Positions 24,708 through 32,205 of a stretch of DNA of 39,910 bases are shown here, one piece after another. Made by a program: the position numbers and the translations under genes. The stretch comes from Gemmatimonadota bacterium. GTDB taxonomy: Bacteria > Gemmatimonadota > Gemmatimonadetes > Gemmatimonadales > GWC2-71-9. A model generated the notes under the pieces. The model was not told the origin of the DNA, searched no databases, and saw only the letters and a program-made list of their open reading frames with translations. Numbering within the stretch: the stretch's first letter is position 1; each line of letters starts with the position of its first letter. Location: contig QHUJ01000152.1 in NCBI GenBank assembly GCA_003221895.1, positions 1-39,910 on the forward strand. Reading direction: 5' to 3'.

Positions 24708-26249
24708 CTAGTGCAAATCTCCCGTCCGAAACAGCAGTCCCACGATCCCCGTGGTCGCATTCGCCTGTGCTCCAAGGTTTTGGAAGGTCGCCGACCGATC
24801 GTTCGCCTCGGCTCGTACCGTAGAATTTTGATACAAGGGGTAATACCCGATCATCATCCGCTGCGCACCCGGCGGGATCGTGCACCCGCAACGCGTTGAT
24901 CCCGCTAACCCAGCGTTGACAATGATAGAAAGGGACTGCCCAGTCTCGTTCGTGATGACTGGTGCGAAATAGGCGCCGTGTCTGGGACTCGCGGTGGCTG
25001 CGACGCGCACGGTGCCGCGCGGCCGCGGGAGCGCGATCGTGTCGCCCAGCGGGACGCCAAGCCGTGGCACGAGCTGCCACGACACATCGAGCCGCCGGGC
25101 GCGATCGACCTTGAGTGTGAACGACCCACCCGGCAGAATCCGTCGCTCCTCGCCGGCGACTTGCACCGTCACCATGTCGTTCAGCTTGTTCTCGAACACC
25201 AGCGTGGGTTGTCTAAAGAACAAGGCGCCGGCGCCTAGCGCGAGGAGTGGCAGGGCGATAACCAGGAGTACCCAACCCAATCGTCTGGGTCGTGCCGCCG
25301 CGCCAACGTGCCGGCGTGTGGACTTCGTAGTCGCTCCGCTCACCAGCAATTCAGTCGCTGCCGCTGCCGCCGAAGCCCGCGACCTCACTGTGCTCGGCTG
25401 CTTGTCGCTCTCGAGCGCCCCAATCACCTCGGCCGCCGAGTGGAACCGATCCTTCGGCTGCTTCTGCAGCAGCCGCAGAATCACATCCGACAATTCGCGC
25501 GGCACTTTCGCATTCACGTCCGACGCGGCGGGCGGCGGATCGGCGATGTGTTTGCCGACGATCTGCTGCGACGAGTCGCCGTCGAATGGTGGCGCGCCCG
25601 TCACCATCTGGAAGAGTACGGCGCCGAGCGAGTAGAGATCCGACGCCGGGCCGAGATTGGGATCGCCGAGCGCTTGCTCGGGACTCATGTAGTGTGGCGT
25701 GCCGATTACGAGTCCCGTCTGCGTGAGTCCGGGTCCCGCCTTACTGTCGAGCCGTCGCGCGATGCCGAAGTCCACGAGCAGCGGCCTGCCGCGCGCGACG
25801 TCGAGCATGATGTTATCAGGCTTGATGTCGCGGTGGACCAGACCCGCTTTGTGTGCATGATCGAGCGCGTCGAGAATCGGAATGATGATCGCGAGGGCAC
25901 GCTCGGGGGGCAGCGCTCCCGATCGCTTCAATAATTCACCCAACGACATGCCATCGACGAAGGGCATCGCGTAGTACACGAGTCCCTCGCCCTCACCGAC
26001 AAAGTGAATCGGCAGGATGTTGGGATGCTCGAGTCGCGCCGCGGCGCGAGTCTCGCGCTGGAATCGCTCGATCATCCCCGAAGTCCAGGCGACATCGGGG
26101 CGCAGCACCTTCACCGCGAGCCGGCGCTCAAGGTCTTTATCCCACACCTCGTAGACCTCGGCGAATCCCCCGGAACCGATGAGCCGGCGGACCTCGTACT
26201 TGGGGCCGAGGGCGCGAGACAGACTGGCGAGGGTGGCGGACTCGGTCAT
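24708..26249 (-). CDS. Transmembrane serine/threonine protein kinase (PknB type)
   Basis: 513 residues. The kinase domain spans about 18-280: glycine loop GSGGFAEV (25-32), lysine K47 in AVKVL, catalytic HRDIKPDN (139-146, D141), DFG (160-162) and the activation segment to YMSPEQ (187-192), so it should be active. A basic juxtamembrane linker leads to one membrane helix (about 324-345, GWVLLVIALPLLALGAGALFF). A 165-residue extracytoplasmic domain follows, without PASTA repeats and with a CGCTIPPG motif. A sensor role is inferred. There is no ribosome site; TATAGT is 7 nt ahead of the ATG. The TPR lipoprotein and DUF4384 genes follow on the same strand. Confidence 0.9.
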   Translation of the reverse strand: MTESATLASLSRALGPKYEVRRLIGSGGFAEVYEVWDKDLERRLAVKVLRPDVAWTSGMIERFQRETRAAARLEHPNILPIHFVGEGEGLVYYAMPFVDGMSLGELLKRSGALPPERALAIIIPILDALDHAHKAGLVHRDIKPDNIMLDVARGRPLLVDFGIARRLDSKAGPGLTQTGLVIGTPHYMSPEQALGDPNLGPASDLYSLGAVLFQMVTGAPPFDGDSSQQIVGKHIADPPPAASDVNAKVPRELSDVILRLLQKQPKDRFHSAAEVIGALESDKQPSTVRSRASAAAAATELLVSGATTKSTRRHVGAAARPRRLGWVLLVIALPLLALGAGALFFRQPTLVFENKLNDMVTVQVAGEERRILPGGSFTLKVDRARRLDVSWQLVPRLGVPLGDTIALPRPRGTVRVAATASPRHGAYFAPVITNETGQSLSIIVNAGLAGSTRCGCTIPPGAQRMMIGYYPLYQNSTVRAEANDRSATFQNLGAQANATTGIVGLLFRTGDLH

Positions 26250-26424: not shown

Positions 26425-26432
26425 GGACTCCA

Positions 26433-27089
26433 ATGACCGTCAATAAAGACTTCAAGCGCCTGGTTCGTGCGCGCATGCTGAAGACTGGCGAAGCCTACAC
26501 CACCGCCCGCCGTCGCATCCTCGAGACAAAAACCCAACCGGTTAAAATCGACTACGCCACGCTCGCCGGCATGAGCGACGCGACGATCAAGGCGCGCACC
26601 GGCTGCACCTGGAAGCGTTGGGTGGGTGCGCTCGACTACGTCGGCGCGGACACATGGGAACATGGCAAGATCGCGACGTACGTTCACGAGAAATTCAAAA
26701 TCGCCGGCTGGTGGGCGCAGAACGTCACTGTCGGGTACGAGCGCATCAAAGGCCTCCGCGCCATCGGCCAGCGACGCGACGGCAGGTACGAAGCGTCGAA
26801 AACCAAGATCTTTCCGGTCTCACTCGCCAGGCTGTATCGCGCGTGGTCGGATGCCAAGGCTCGCAAAGGATGGTTGCCGGATGAGTTCACCGTGACGACC
26901 GCGAATCGCAACAAGACGATGCGCATCAGATGGCCGGATGGGTCGAACGTCGCCGTCTATTTCTATGGCAAGGGAGCTGGCAAGGCGCAGGTGAATGTCC
27001 AGCACATGAAGCTGAATAAGGACGGGCAGACTAGAATGAAGGCGTTCTGGACGGAGAAGCTGGGGCGTCTCGACAAAACCCTGCAGTAA
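26433..27089 (+). CDS. DUF4287/SRPBCC-type hypothetical protein
   Basis: 218 residues. The N-terminal part (MTVNKDFKRLVRARMLKTGE) is helical and is followed by a DUF4287-like segment, GCTWKRWVGALDYVGADTWEHGKIATYVHEKFKI, then WWAQNVTVGYERIKGLRA. The last 90 residues (ASKTKIFPVSLARLYRAW ... MRIRWPDGSNVAVYFYGKGAGKAQVNVQHMKL) resemble the SRPBCC/AHSA1 fold often fused to it. Ligand and function are unknown. The ATG at 26433 has AAGGGG upstream; a frame extending to 26004 is antisense to the kinase gene. Its 3' end meets the decayed cyclase remnant at 27086. Confidence 0.7.
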   Translation: MTVNKDFKRLVRARMLKTGEAYTTARRRILETKTQPVKIDYATLAGMSDATIKARTGCTWKRWVGALDYVGADTWEHGKIATYVHEKFKIAGWWAQNVTVGYERIKGLRAIGQRRDGRYEASKTKIFPVSLARLYRAWSDAKARKGWLPDEFTVTTANRNKTMRIRWPDGSNVAVYFYGKGAGKAQVNVQHMKLNKDGQTRMKAFWTEKLGRLDKTLQ

Positions 27090-27181
27090 CAGCACTTCTA
27101 CGCAGTAGGCGTGCACATCCCTGTGCGCTGGGATACGACCAGCGCCAGGGAGTCACGCTGCTCGTGCCCGACCTGTTGGAA
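27086..27181 (-). pseudogene. Decayed C-terminus of a DisA-like cyclase gene
   Basis: Reading the minus strand from 27181, one frame gives FQQVGHEQRDSLALVVSQR and another, further on, gives HAYCVEVLLL. These match the end of the intact cyclase at 29465 (QFVYEQRDSLALVASQ and QAYRVEALLL). At DNA level, CAGCACTTCTACGCAGTAGG here parallels CAGAGCTTCTACCCGATACG near 29475. About 40 nt between the two blocks is deleted and the frame is broken, so this is a relic of a second cyclase copy. It overlaps the end of the DUF4287 gene by four bases. Confidence 0.7.
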
Positions 27182-27193
27182 CCACATTGGTCC

Positions 27194-27208
27194 CAAAGTG
27201 TCACTTTG
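27194..27208. promoter_or_regulatory. Palindrome CAAAGTG-T-CACTTTG
   Basis: A perfect 15-nt odd palindrome immediately adjoining the Crp/Fnr-type site at 27207, in the 222-nt gap before the lipoprotein gene. TGGTCCCA occurs on both sides (27188 and 27238). Likely a second operator or part of a composite promoter. Confidence 0.4.
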
Positions 27209-27222
27209 TGAGCCTTCTCACG
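27207..27222 (+). promoter_or_regulatory. Crp/Fnr-type site, unit 1 (TGTGA-N6-TCACG)
   Basis: TGTGAGCCTTCTCACG fits the TGTGA-N6-TCACA consensus in nine of ten fixed positions. It differs by only two bases from the site at 30584. It is about 90 nt ahead of the lipoprotein/HD-GYP pair. Confidence 0.6.
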
Positions 27223-27311
27223 GCAATAACCCCGTAATGGTCCCATCATGTACCCCGGTAAAGTCCCATTCAGCCCACTCCGAAGCGCCTATTGAAGGAG
27301 AAGCCCCGCAC

Positions 27312-27857
27312 ATGAAGGCCGTTCGTGCTCTCGCGGTCCTGATTCTGGTCTGCCTCGTCGCACCGTCCTGCGGCGATCGCGGTCCCACAGCACCAGCAAC
27401 GCCGGCAGCTGCCCCGACTCCCATCCCCACGCCTGACGCCAGCCTCATCGGCGGGTTGTTGCAGGCGACGGGCCTCCTCAGCTGCTCCAATCTGCCGTAC
27501 GACTCCGAGACGAAGACGATCGGACCTGAGGGCGGCAGCATGAGCGTCGGGCCGCACGTCTTCGTCGTTCCGGCGGGCGCGCTCGCCGCGCCGACGGCGA
27601 TCACGATGACGCTGCGGACGGGGTTGGGTGTCAATGCCGTCCGGTTCCAGCCGGAAGGGCTGCAGTTCGATCGCCCAGCCTCGCTGACGATGAGTTACTC
27701 GAACTGCAATCTCCTGGGCAAGCTGTTGCCCAAGCGGATTGCGTACACGGACGGCAATCTCAACATCCTGTCGTACCTGCTGTCACTCGACAACCTCTTC
27801 GCCAGGCGCGTCACGGGTCAGGTCAATCACTTCTCCGATTACGTAGTCGCGTGGTAA
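27312..27857 (+). CDS. Lipoprotein with ZU5-like domain
   Basis: 181 residues. A lipoprotein signal ends in APSC, followed by a Pro/Ala/Thr linker (about 25-50) and a compact domain with IGPEGGSMSVGPHVFVVPAGALAAPTAITM, the pattern of ZU5-like domains in exported bacterial proteins, then FQPEGLQFDRPASLTMSYSNC. Probably envelope-anchored; function unknown. GAAGGAG is about 12 nt ahead of the ATG. It lies 22 nt upstream of the first TPR-HD-GYP gene and between that gene and its Crp-type site, a position with no counterpart in the second HD-GYP unit, so it may be a later insertion. Confidence 0.7.
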   Translation: MKAVRALAVLILVCLVAPSCGDRGPTAPATPAAAPTPIPTPDASLIGGLLQATGLLSCSNLPYDSETKTIGPEGGSMSVGPHVFVVPAGALAAPTAITMTLRTGLGVNAVRFQPEGLQFDRPASLTMSYSNCNLLGKLLPKRIAYTDGNLNILSYLLSLDNLFARRVTGQVNHFSDYVVAW

Positions 27858-27879
27858 CACGACGGAGCTGGCGGAGCAG

Positions 27880-29535
27880 ATGACCGCGGTTTCGATCCCC
27901 GGTCCGGGTCGGGCGGGTCCGAGAGCACCAGCTCGTCCGGCCGGGGATTTGTTGCATGAAGCGCGCGACCGTGAGCGCGCCGCCTGCATCCCCGAAGCCA
28001 TTTCTTGTTACGAAGCCGCGATCTCCACGGCCGAGCGGACAGGTGAGCGCGCGGTCCTGGCCGAGGCACAGCGTCGCCTGGCGGTCGTGTTGCATCATCG
28101 CAACGAGTCGCAGCGCGCGCGCGATCTCTGCAATCGTAGCTACAGAGTCGCCTGCGAACTGAAGAACGACGTCCTCGCCGGCGAGGCGTTGAACACGCTG
28201 GGTGGGCTGGCGTTGCGCACCGGCGAAATGGACGAGGCGCGAAGCTTCTTCCTCCAGGCGCTCGAGCGTGGCGGCAGTGCGCGCGCGCTCGAGGCCCGAG
28301 TCGAGCAAAACCTTGGCATTCTCGCGAACATCCACGGCCAGCTCATCGAGGCGGTGCGGCATTACGAGCGCTCGGTCGAGGCGTACCGCGCGGTCAACGA
28401 TGAGCACGGCTCCGCGACCGCGTACGTGAATCTCGGCATCGCCCACACGGATTTGCGGCAGTACGACTGGGCCGACAGCTACTTCAGCAAGAGCTCCGAC
28501 ATTGCCGAGCGTGCCGGAGACGTGCACCTGCAGGGCATGTGTCTCGCGAACCACGCCGAGGCGCATTTCCTGCGCGGCCGCTACGACGAGGCGCGCCGCA
28601 TGTCTGAGGCGGCGCTGGCGATCTTCGATCAGCTCGACTCGCGCGCCGACAAATCCGAAGCCTACAAGCTGATCGGCATGGTGTACCGCGAAACCGGACG
28701 GTCCGCGCTCGCGGAGTCGCGGCTGCGCACCGCGATCGACCTGGCCGTCAGCGCCGGCTCCGTCCTCAACGAAGCGGAAGCGGCGCGCGAGCTGGCGTTG
28801 CTGATGCAGCTCATGGGCCGCAATCAGGATGCGCTCACGCTCCTGAGCACGGCGCACCGGCTGTTCCGGCGGCTCGACGCGCGCATCGACCTGGTGTACG
28901 TCGGCGGCAAAGTCTCCGCGCTCGAAAGCACCTACTTCGACGTCGTGCGCGAGTGGGGCCAGTCGATCGAATCGGCAGACAGCTACACGTTCGGCCACTG
29001 CGAACGGGTGGCGCAGCGCGCCCTGGCAGTGGCGCGCATCCTGATGCTCGACGACACCGCCCAGACCACCATCCGCCTCGGCGCCTACCTCCACGATCTC
29101 GGCAAAGTGCGCGTGCCCCACGAGATCTTGAGCAAGCCGGGTCCGCTGACGCGCGAGGAGTTCGAGGTGGTACAGATGCATCCCATCTGGGGACTCGAGC
29201 TGCTCGCCGCCGTCGAGTTCCCCTGGGACCTGAAGCCCATCATTCGCTGGCATCACGAGCGCTACGACGGCACGGGGTACCCCGACCGGCTGCAAGGCGA
29301 CGAGATCCCGGTGGCGGCGCAGATCGTCGGGATCGTGGACGTGTACGACGCGCTCACGACGGAGCGATCGTACCGGCCGGCACTGCCGCCCGAAACAGCA
29401 ATGGCGGAGATCGAGAAATGCCGTAGCTGGTGGTCGCCACCGGTCTACGACGCGTTTTTGAGTGCTAGAGGAGCAGAGCTTCTACCCGATACGCCTGCAC
29501 TAGCTTCGCGCGCTGCGACCAGCCAAAAACAGTAA
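27880..29535 (+). CDS. TPR-HD-GYP phosphodiesterase-like protein, copy 1
   Basis: 551 residues. Residues about 22-345 form tetratricopeptide-like repeats (AISCYEAAISTAERTGERAV, ARSFFLQALERGGSARALEA, AYVNLGIAHTDLRQYDWADS). The C-terminal HD-GYP domain runs about 365-535: FGHCERV (H373), HDLGK (H405-D406), HPIWGLELL, and HHERYDGTGYP (H458, H459, GYP 466-468), with VDVYDALT after it. The metal ligands are present, so activity is expected; HD-GYP enzymes normally hydrolyse c-di-GMP. It has no membrane segment and is cytoplasmic. About four-fifths of positions match copy 2 at 30634 by eye. Its last 71 bases overlap the end of the convergent cyclase-like gene. GGAG precedes the ATG. Confidence 0.9.
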   Translation: MTAVSIPGPGRAGPRAPARPAGDLLHEARDRERAACIPEAISCYEAAISTAERTGERAVLAEAQRRLAVVLHHRNESQRARDLCNRSYRVACELKNDVLAGEALNTLGGLALRTGEMDEARSFFLQALERGGSARALEARVEQNLGILANIHGQLIEAVRHYERSVEAYRAVNDEHGSATAYVNLGIAHTDLRQYDWADSYFSKSSDIAERAGDVHLQGMCLANHAEAHFLRGRYDEARRMSEAALAIFDQLDSRADKSEAYKLIGMVYRETGRSALAESRLRTAIDLAVSAGSVLNEAEAARELALLMQLMGRNQDALTLLSTAHRLFRRLDARIDLVYVGGKVSALESTYFDVVREWGQSIESADSYTFGHCERVAQRALAVARILMLDDTAQTTIRLGAYLHDLGKVRVPHEILSKPGPLTREEFEVVQMHPIWGLELLAAVEFPWDLKPIIRWHHERYDGTGYPDRLQGDEIPVAAQIVGIVDVYDALTTERSYRPALPPETAMAEIEKCRSWWSPPVYDAFLSARGAELLPDTPALASRAATSQKQ

Positions 29536-30556
29536 AGCGTCTGTCCTGCGATGCGACGAGCGCGAGCGAGTCTCGCTGCTCGTATACGAACTGCGCGGCC
29601 GAGAGATGCCGTGTCCCACCGAGCTCCGCCGCGTTCATCATGGTCGGCTGATGGCCGAGGATCGGCTCGCGTACCAGCACATCCTCGACGAACGGCCCGG
29701 CCTCGGTGCGGCCGATCTTGGCTCCGAACGCGAGCACATCGTAGCGACCGCTCAGCACGACTGCGCCGTCCACCGCCGTGAGCCCGCCGATCGCGTCGAT
29801 CGCCTCCCTGAAGCCGGCATCGCGCGAACCCTTGCGGACCAGGTCACCGAGCTTCGAGAACGGCGGCGCCACGGCGTAGGGAACCGAGACGATCGATTTG
29901 CGCCAGGCATCGCTGCCGTGCGGCACCACCAGCAGCGAGCCGCCGTGCTTGTGCGCCCGCATCGACAGCGCGAGCGGGAGGAGAACATCGTCCGTGTCCG
30001 TTGACGCTTGATCAAACCCGAGCAGCGTCATGACGAAGTCGGGGCACTCGGATGTGATCGTGCCCTCGGCGTCCACGATTTTCACCTGATCCCCTTCGAG
30101 TACCGCGACATTCGCGAATTTGCCGTCCGGATCCGCGCGCCGGTGCTTGATGACCAGCAGACCCGGCTCGATCACTTCGACCACAAAGCAGAGCGGCGGG
30201 ATCGAGCGCGTCGCGCCCCAGACGCGCAGCTCGTTACCATTCGGCCAGACGCCGAGGTGAATGCCCGGCCGCTCGACGGCGGGTGACAGGCGCGTCAGGA
30301 TGGCCGGATCGAGCGGCAGGGGACGCTCGATGAAGAGCGCGGTACCGCCGGCCGGCGGCGGGAGATAGGCCAGGGAGATCGTCGGGGCGCGGCCCTCCTC
30401 CCGCCGCAGACTCGCCCAGAAGGCGGCGCTGATGAGCCGGTCGATCGTTGGCTCGTCGGGAGTCTCGGCGAAACCAGGTGTGGGGGTCCGCTTACGCGCC
30501 GCGTCTAAGTGACGGCGAAAGTGCTCGGTTACGACATGGGCGACCGACTGATTCAT
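29465..30556 (-). CDS. DisA_N-like (putative diadenylate cyclase) protein with N-terminal sensor-like region
   Basis: 363 residues, no signal or membrane helix. The C-terminal part (about 255-350) resembles the DisA_N cyclase domain: LTAVDGAVVLSGRYDVLAFGAKI carries the DGA motif (263-265) and ELGGTRHLSAAQFV carries GTRH, where canonical enzymes have RHR and this one RHL (316-318), followed by ALVASQDRRFTVF. DisA_N enzymes make c-di-AMP from two ATP; the RHL change leaves activity uncertain. The N-terminal approximately 250 residues resemble the DACNV-type sensor region described for such proteins. ATG 30556 is chosen; an alternative at 30592 would read through the Crp-type site. It is flanked on both sides by TPR-HD-GYP genes and overlaps the first by 71 nt. 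Confidence 0.65.
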   Translation of the reverse strand: MNQSVAHVVTEHFRRHLDAARKRTPTPGFAETPDEPTIDRLISAAFWASLRREEGRAPTISLAYLPPPAGGTALFIERPLPLDPAILTRLSPAVERPGIHLGVWPNGNELRVWGATRSIPPLCFVVEVIEPGLLVIKHRRADPDGKFANVAVLEGDQVKIVDAEGTITSECPDFVMTLLGFDQASTDTDDVLLPLALSMRAHKHGGSLLVVPHGSDAWRKSIVSVPYAVAPPFSKLGDLVRKGSRDAGFREAIDAIGGLTAVDGAVVLSGRYDVLAFGAKIGRTEAGPFVEDVLVREPILGHQPTMMNAAELGGTRHLSAAQFVYEQRDSLALVASQDRRFTVFGWSQRAKLVQAYRVEALLL

Positions 30557-30583
30557 GTCGCGGAAACTAGTCGTCCTTTCCCC

Positions 30584-30599
30584 TGTGACCATTCTCACG
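30584..30599. promoter_or_regulatory. Crp/Fnr-type site, unit 2 (TGTGA-N6-TCACG)
   Basis: TGTGACCATTCTCACG lies in the 77-nt divergent gap, about 35 nt ahead of the HD-GYP copy 2 start and 28 nt ahead of the cyclase-like start. It fits the Crp/Fnr consensus in nine of ten fixed positions and is nearly identical to the site at 27207. It could control both genes. Confidence 0.6.
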
Positions 30600-30633
30600 G
30601 TTACCGGCTCCGTCCCCGGGGCATCTTCTACCA

Positions 30634-32205
30634 ATGAAGGCCGCCGTCGACCTGCTGCACGAAGCGCGCTCGCGCGAGCGCGCCGCTTGCCTTCCTGAAG
30701 CAATTGCGTGTTTCGAAGCCGCGATCTCCACCGCCGAACGGACGGGGGAGCACGCGGTCCTCGCGGAGGCGCAGCGCCGGCTGGCGGTGGTGCTGTATCA
30801 CCGCAACGAAACCGACCGCGCCCGTGAGCTGTGCAATCAAAGCTACACGGTCGCGTGCGATCTCAAGAACGACCTGCTGGCCGCCGAGGCGCTCAACACC
30901 TTGGGCGGATTGGCGCTCGCCACGGGCGATATAGAGGAGGCGCGGAGCTTCTTCCAGAGAGCACTCGATCGCGGCGGCAACGCGCGCGAGCTGCAGGCGC
31001 GCATCGAGCTGAACCTCGGCATCCTCGCGAACATTCGGGGCAACCTGGTCGAGGCCGTGAAGCACTACGAGCGGGCAGTGGAAGCGTATCGCGCGACCAA
31101 CGACGAGCATGGCTCCGCCAGCGCGTACGTGAACCTCGGCATCGCGCATACCGACCTGCGGCAGTACGACTGGGCCGACAGCTACTTCAGCATGAGCTTC
31201 AAGATCGCCGAGCGCGCGGGCGATCCCCACCTGCAGGGTATGTGCCTCGTGAATCACGCCGAGGCACACTTTGCGCGCGGCCGCTACGAGCAAGCGCTCC
31301 GCAACGCCGAGTCCGCGCTGGCGATCTTCGACCGGCTCGATTCGCGCAGCGACAAATCCGAAGCGTACAAGATGATCGGCATGGTGTATCGCGAGATCGG
31401 TCGACTGCCGCTCGCCGAATCGCGGCTGCGTACCGCGATCGATCTCGCCGTGAGCGCGGGCTCGGTGCTGAACGAAGCCGACGCCACGCGCGAGCTTGCC
31501 CTCCTGATGCAGGCCATGGGCCGCAATCAGGACGCGCTGGCGCTGCTCAACTCGGCGTATCGCCTGTACGGCCGCCTCGACGCGCGCATCGAGCTCGTCC
31601 ACGTCGCCGGCAAAATGTACGAGCTGGAGACGACGTACTCGGAGCTGGTGCGCGAGTGGGGCCAGTCGATCGAATCGGCGGACAGCTACACGTTCGGCCA
31701 TTGCGAGCGCGTCGCCCGTCGCGCCTTGGCTGTCGCGCGCTACCTCGGCTTGGACGACACCGAACAGACAGCGATCCGCCTCGGCGCCTACCTCCATGAC
31801 CTCGGCAAAGTCCGCGTGCCGCACGAAATCCTCAACAAGCCGGGCCCGCTGACGCGCGCTGAGTTCGACGTGGTGCAGATGCATCCGCTGTGGGGTATCG
31901 AGCTGCTCGCCGCAGTCGAATTCCCCTGGGATTTGAAGCCCATCATCCGCTGGCATCACGAGCGCTACGACGGCACCGGTTATCCCGATCGGCTGCACGG
32001 AGAAGCGATTCCCGTGGCGGCCCAGATCGTCGGCATCGTGGATGTGTACGACGCGCTGACGACGCAGCGCTCCTACCGGAAGGCGCTGCCGCACGAGTCG
32101 GCGATGGCCGAGATCGAGCGGTGCCGCAGCTGGTGGTCGACGAAGGTGTATGACGCGTTCCTCACTTCGGTAGAGCCCGCCGCAAGCATCGCCAAACTGC
32201 GTTAG
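30634..32205 (+). CDS. TPR-HD-GYP phosphodiesterase-like protein, copy 2
   Basis: 523 residues, starting MKAAVDLLHEARSRERAACL, so it lacks the 20-residue N-terminal extension of copy 1. TPR-like repeats cover about 4-330. The HD-GYP domain has HDLGK (H388-D389) and HHERYDGTGYP (H441, H442, GYP 449-451) intact. By eye it matches copy 1 at about four in five positions, highest in the HD-GYP core and the TPR block AYVNLGIAHTDLRQYDWADSYF. It is divergent from the cyclase-like gene, sharing a 77-nt control region with a Crp-type site. The ribosome site is weak (GGGG about 11 nt upstream). Confidence 0.9.
   Translation: MKAAVDLLHEARSRERAACLPEAIACFEAAISTAERTGEHAVLAEAQRRLAVVLYHRNETDRARELCNQSYTVACDLKNDLLAAEALNTLGGLALATGDIEEARSFFQRALDRGGNARELQARIELNLGILANIRGNLVEAVKHYERAVEAYRATNDEHGSASAYVNLGIAHTDLRQYDWADSYFSMSFKIAERAGDPHLQGMCLVNHAEAHFARGRYEQALRNAESALAIFDRLDSRSDKSEAYKMIGMVYREIGRLPLAESRLRTAIDLAVSAGSVLNEADATRELALLMQAMGRNQDALALLNSAYRLYGRLDARIELVHVAGKMYELETTYSELVREWGQSIESADSYTFGHCERVARRALAVARYLGLDDTEQTAIRLGAYLHDLGKVRVPHEILNKPGPLTRAEFDVVQMHPLWGIELLAAVEFPWDLKPIIRWHHERYDGTGYPDRLHGEAIPVAAQIVGIVDVYDALTTQRSYRKALPHESAMAEIERCRSWWSTKVYDAFLTSVEPAASIAKLR

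Follow-up and report, generated by a model that had tools for sequence, protein, structure and literature searches.

A DACNV protein with a predicted diadenylate cyclase-like fold and its TPR-HD-GYP gene neighbours in a genus of soil Gemmatimonadota

When a gene for a putative cyclic-dinucleotide cyclase lies beside genes for HD-GYP proteins, do the products share a nucleotide, or is the tie between them of another kind? We met this question in a 39,910-nucleotide stretch of a Gemmatimonadota contig (QHUJ01000152.1; the whole stretch analysed here, hereafter the window), in which two TPR-HD-GYP genes, HDA and HDB, flank an opposite-strand gene, CYC (Table 1). The reading we favour, with a probability of about 0.45, is that CYC is a c-di-AMP cyclase and that HDA and HDB are c-di-GMP phosphodiesterases, the genes being linked genetically and adjusted to each other at the level of expression rather than through a shared nucleotide.

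Table 1. Positions of the features discussed, in window coordinates
Feature	Coordinates	Strand	Basis
Relic of the 3' end of a cyclase gene	27086..27181	-	48-bp match at 79%, above all shuffles; peptides match on both sides of a frameshift
Crp-like site TGTGAGCCTTCTCACG, upstream of the lipoprotein and HDA genes	27207..27222		9/10 half-site match; conserved in most congener loci
Small lipoprotein-like gene upstream of HDA	27312..27857	+	Conserved position, immediately before type-1 TPR-HD-GYP genes, in congeners
HDA, TPR + HD-GYP protein (type 1), exact start uncertain	27880..29535	+	Pfam, HD-GYP motifs
Antisense overlap of HDA and CYC 3' ends, 71 bp	29465..29535		Same length, 71 bp, in each of the seven genomes with an intact pair
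CYC, DACNV + divergent DAC-fold protein, 363 aa, ATG at 30556	29465..30556	-	Pfam, AF2, Foldseek, dN/dS
GTRH motif of CYC, residues 314-317	29606..29617	-	Invariant in 56 homologs
DGA motif of CYC, residues 263-265	29762..29770	-	Invariant in 56 homologs
DACNV domain of CYC	30209..30469	-	PF21751, 99.1 bits
Crp-like site TGTGACCATTCTCACG in the CYC-HDB gap, 43 bp before the ATG of CYC	30584..30599		Same place in G002
HDB, second TPR + HD-GYP protein	30634..32205	+	81% identical to HDA; purifying selection

The N-terminal part of CYC is a DACNV domain (PF21751; E-value 1.5e-27, about 96-99 bits against a cut-off of 27), and the same match was found in all 56 homologs collected. The first-pass annotation had read the C-terminus as DisA_N-like and pointed to DGA and GTRH motifs. 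Both motifs are present, while the Pfam DAC profile (PF02457) scores CYC below its cut-off (E-value 0.036, 14.1 bits against 27) and gives sub-threshold matches in 45 of the 56 homologs, the best at 4.6e-4. Profile-profile comparison of CYC with CdaA was likewise weak, and a sequence search of solved structures returned no DAC match, so that structure comparison was needed. An AlphaFold (AF2) model built with the 56 homologs reached a mean pLDDT of 89.2 and a pTM of 0.86, and the best 50 matches that Foldseek found for it among solved structures were all diadenylate cyclases (DisA, CdaA, DacA, CdaM), with a probability of 1.00 against DisA and CdaA, E-values from 5.8e-5 and TM-scores up to about 0.6 when normalised by target. 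The likeness to DisA_N proteins thus holds for the DAC fold of a predicted model, as opposed to a solved structure, and fails at the level of the Pfam profile. Searches of CYC against defence-system models and NCBIfam gave no match.

Besides, residues D263-G264-A265, G314 to H317, S336 and D338 of CYC are invariant among the 56 homologs. The one departure from the canonical RHR motif lies behind the Arg-His pair (R316-H317), where L318 (residues 314-318 being encoded at 29603-29617) is at least 90% conserved at the position of the second arginine of canonical DACs; the CdaA of the same genus carries the canonical GTRHR. Replacement of the whole RHR motif by alanines abolished the activity of two known cyclases, and activity was lost when the DGA motif of CdaS was replaced (PMC3328451, PMC4568413), entire motifs rather than single residues having been changed in these experiments. 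CYC thus shares the predicted fold, the DGA motif and the Arg-His of RHR with the DAC/DisA_N cyclases (PF02457: CdaA, DisA, CdaS), yet stands outside the canonical family because of its Pfam score and the leucine in third place of the motif. Its DAC domain is C-terminal, and Pfam reports in it neither the transmembrane part of CdaA nor the C-terminal parts of DisA.

Does such a domain still catalyse? CYC could instead bind a nucleotide as a receptor or regulator, having retained the DAC fold but lost the full RHR motif, and both the family-wide leucine and the sub-threshold DAC scores would fit this. However, from Gemmatimonadota through Bacteroidota neither the Asp of DGA nor the Arg-His pair varies, a higher degree of conservation than one would expect had the active site been lost, and we consider a receptor unlikely. 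A dN/dS of about 0.11-0.18 against congeners places CYC under purifying selection. From its model and motifs, CYC is DAC-like in its predicted fold and probably also in its action, and it is a probable second diadenylate-cyclase-like enzyme of the genome.

As to the flanking genes, HDA and HDB were described at the outset as about four-fifths alike, and the alignment bears this out over 511 aa. TPR repeats are found in both, the HD_5 profile matches HDA at 4e-33 and HDB at 2e-32, and each has the complete H...HD...H...HH...GYP...D set (in HDA at residues 372, 405, 433, 457 and 486). The dN/dS between them is about 0.16. The two proteins look catalytically complete and are probable c-di-GMP phosphodiesterases. 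They share the full residue set and the GYP motif with the HD-GYP phosphodiesterases PmGH, Bd1817 and VCA0681, from which they differ by an N-terminal TPR array, likely a sensory or binding part.

To see how regularly these genes keep company, we compared ten genomes of the genus, which consists of uncultured soil Gemmatimonadota and includes the named Gemmatimonadetes MAGs AG16, AG34, AG35, AG38 and AG40. CYC is intact in seven, broken in one (G267) and was not found in two, both incomplete assemblies. In all seven genomes with an intact CYC a TPR-HD-GYP gene is convergent (tail-to-tail) with it, and the overlap, which the first-pass annotation had not mentioned, keeps its length of 71 bp despite two types of HD partner. 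G000, G002, G022 and G298 have the HDA-like type 1, whereas in G195, G138 and G299 the partner is of type 2 (about 64% identical). Most type-1 partners end in a stretch that is nearer to type 2 than their body is, which suggests that the HD body was exchanged while the junction with CYC stayed; the cyclase tree (FastTree, with weak support inside the genus) is too weak for counting such exchanges. On contig 47 of G267 (locus L030) the CYC gene lies in pieces, and this genome also lacks a close TPR-HD-GYP gene.

Linkage of this kind might reflect shared ancestry alone, CYC and the HD-GYP proteins working independently within one genus. The confinement of the pairing to the genus would agree with that, as would the capacity of overlapping stops to lock convergent genes together; since both strands code, the 71-bp overlap may simply be frozen. 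We nevertheless regard ancestry without a functional tie as unlikely: the gene order around the pair has changed between a kinase-lipoprotein and a membrane-protein context, and CYC is paired with either of two HD types. Antisense regulation through the overlap is also possible.

Outside the genus the picture changes. CYC was found in 14 of 298 genomes of a phylum sample, and a scan of genome contigs yielded at least 456 DACNV-DAC loci; the 80 retained come mainly from Gemmatimonadota, Acidobacteriota and Bacteroidota, with about 50-58% identity to CYC outside the genus. In the flanks fetched around 83 outside-genus loci, some of them short, an HD-GYP gene lay near CYC at a single locus (L024) and at none of the other 82. 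Conserved families among the neighbours could be made out only within groups of close relatives, one broad cluster of long multi-domain proteins being the exception. All eight outside-genus genomes that we checked do have homologs of HD-GYP, several of which carry TPRs and are about 40% identical, on contigs other than that of CYC except in the case of L024. The recurring neighbourhood expected from the first reading of the locus is therefore present throughout the genus wherever CYC is intact and was not found among the loci examined beyond it; the pairing is real but local, and it sets CYC apart within the DACNV family, whose profile its N-terminal domain matches far above the cut-off. A literature search for the DACNV family found no tested function or product.

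The history of the locus proved less simple than a tandem duplication of a divergent unit, [cyclase <- site -> TPR-HD-GYP], as had been proposed. Such an ancestral unit was rejected because the HD and CYC genes of congeners are convergent, with the fixed 71-bp overlap; a divergent CYC/HDB pair was seen in this window only, and HDB, which lies here between CYC and a membrane-protein gene, is absent from the congener loci. Nor do the data show HDA and HDB to be recent tandem duplicates, given that their grouping has a support of just 0.48 and that their dS of 0.80 is close to the 0.69 found between species. Derivation of the HDB start from the lipoprotein gene start by deletion was also considered and dropped, the match amounting to 10 bp and the upstream alignment scoring 27, below the shuffle maximum of 30.

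One part of that proposal, a cyclase-like relic to the left of the lipoprotein gene, was confirmed. The match to the 3' end of CYC spans 27128-27175 and scores 56, whereas the highest score among 200 composition shuffles was 40; in translation the relic reads GHEQRDSLALVVSQ, then a frameshift, then HAYCVEVLLL, where CYC has YEQRDSLALVASQ ... QAYRVEALLL. We read it as the trace of an earlier rearrangement in this lineage. A gene at 26427-27089 with no clear Pfam family ends at the relic; it stands between the kinase and lipoprotein genes in this window only and was not seen there in the congeners read. The Ser/Thr kinase gene itself (24708-26249) is a conserved divergent neighbour of the lipoprotein gene and the type-1 HD-GYP gene (lipoprotein-HD1) in the genus, and the small lipoprotein-like product carries what is likely a lipoprotein signal and matches ZU5 weakly.

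The near-identical Crp-type sites noted in both halves of the locus are indeed there: the two TGTGA-N6-TCACG sequences starting at 27207 and 30584 are the sole ones in the window to score at least 9/10 in their half-sites, a score reached in 1.4% of random 270-bp segments. A TGTGA-N6-TCACA-like site is conserved at orthologous lipoprotein-HD1 promoters, at 9/10 in six loci including that of the window and at 8/10 in G266, with none found in the divergent C317 locus of G298; we assign the left site to this promoter. At the CYC promoter the site was found in two genomes, at -43 from the ATG in the window and at -44 in G002, and not in five other congeners. Its presence at the cyclase promoter of G002 speaks against assigning the right-hand site to the HD promoter alone. 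The genome contains one strong match to a Crp-type (Crp_2) HTH domain, and a Crp protein may act on these sites.

Which nucleotide, then, do the proteins handle? The genome encodes CdaA and a PgpH-type domain, besides 16 GGDEF, 11 HD_5 and three DHHA1 matches. Given its many GGDEF domains, together with CdaA and the PgpH-type domain, CYC and the HD-GYP proteins are not required to share a nucleotide, though a common one is possible. The HD-GYP proteins characterised to date act on c-di-GMP, and in some cases on cGAMP, c-di-AMP being cleaved by PgpH, and the HD-GYP protein PmxA is hardly active on c-di-AMP (PMC8177086). The simplest reading is c-di-GMP for the HD-GYP proteins and c-di-AMP for CYC, with any link running through expression.

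Against this stands a module that makes and breaks one signal, in which CYC would produce c-di-AMP or a hybrid cyclic dinucleotide and its TPR-HD-GYP partner would specifically degrade the same molecule. The linkage in seven of seven genomes, a junction that is kept whichever HD type is present, the Crp-like sites that the window and G002 have at both promoters, and the lack of any genus genome with an intact CYC but no TPR-HD-GYP gene all speak for it. However, type-1 TPR-HD-GYP genes occur without CYC at the kinase-lipoprotein locus of G195, G266, G299 and, as far as the contig reaches, G138; G266 (81% complete) has TPR-HD-GYP and no CYC was found in it. The 82 outside-genus loci without an HD-GYP neighbour, the PgpH-type domain available for c-di-AMP and the poor activity of PmxA on that nucleotide count against the module as well, and we hold it to be quite improbable. 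Its most specific form, in which the product of one DACNV-DAC protein with the RHL motif is degraded by a dedicated TPR-HD-GYP enzyme and the pair is tuned by the antisense overlap and a Crp-type regulator, is very unlikely; if it were true and the product were c-di-AMP, it would mean an HD-GYP protein acting mainly on c-di-AMP.

Under the favoured reading, with c-di-AMP and c-di-GMP handled separately, the DACNV domain of CYC, probably a sensor, would control the divergent DAC-fold catalytic domain, which most likely makes c-di-AMP from two ATP molecules; the genome would then have this cyclase in addition to its housekeeping CdaA. HDA and HDB would be phosphodiesterases regulated through their TPRs and most likely hydrolysing c-di-GMP. 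Lying tail-to-tail, the HD-GYP gene and CYC would probably have their expression adjusted to one another, through a Crp-type control that acts on the lipoprotein-HD unit and, in two species, on CYC as well, and possibly by antisense interference.

The DACNV-DAC family, to which CYC belongs, is widespread and shows good conservation, and its members are putative cyclases related to the enzymes that make c-di-AMP. This genus offers a natural pairing of a DACNV-DAC protein with a phosphodiesterase, which bears on what the family produces and on whether an HD-GYP protein serves it.
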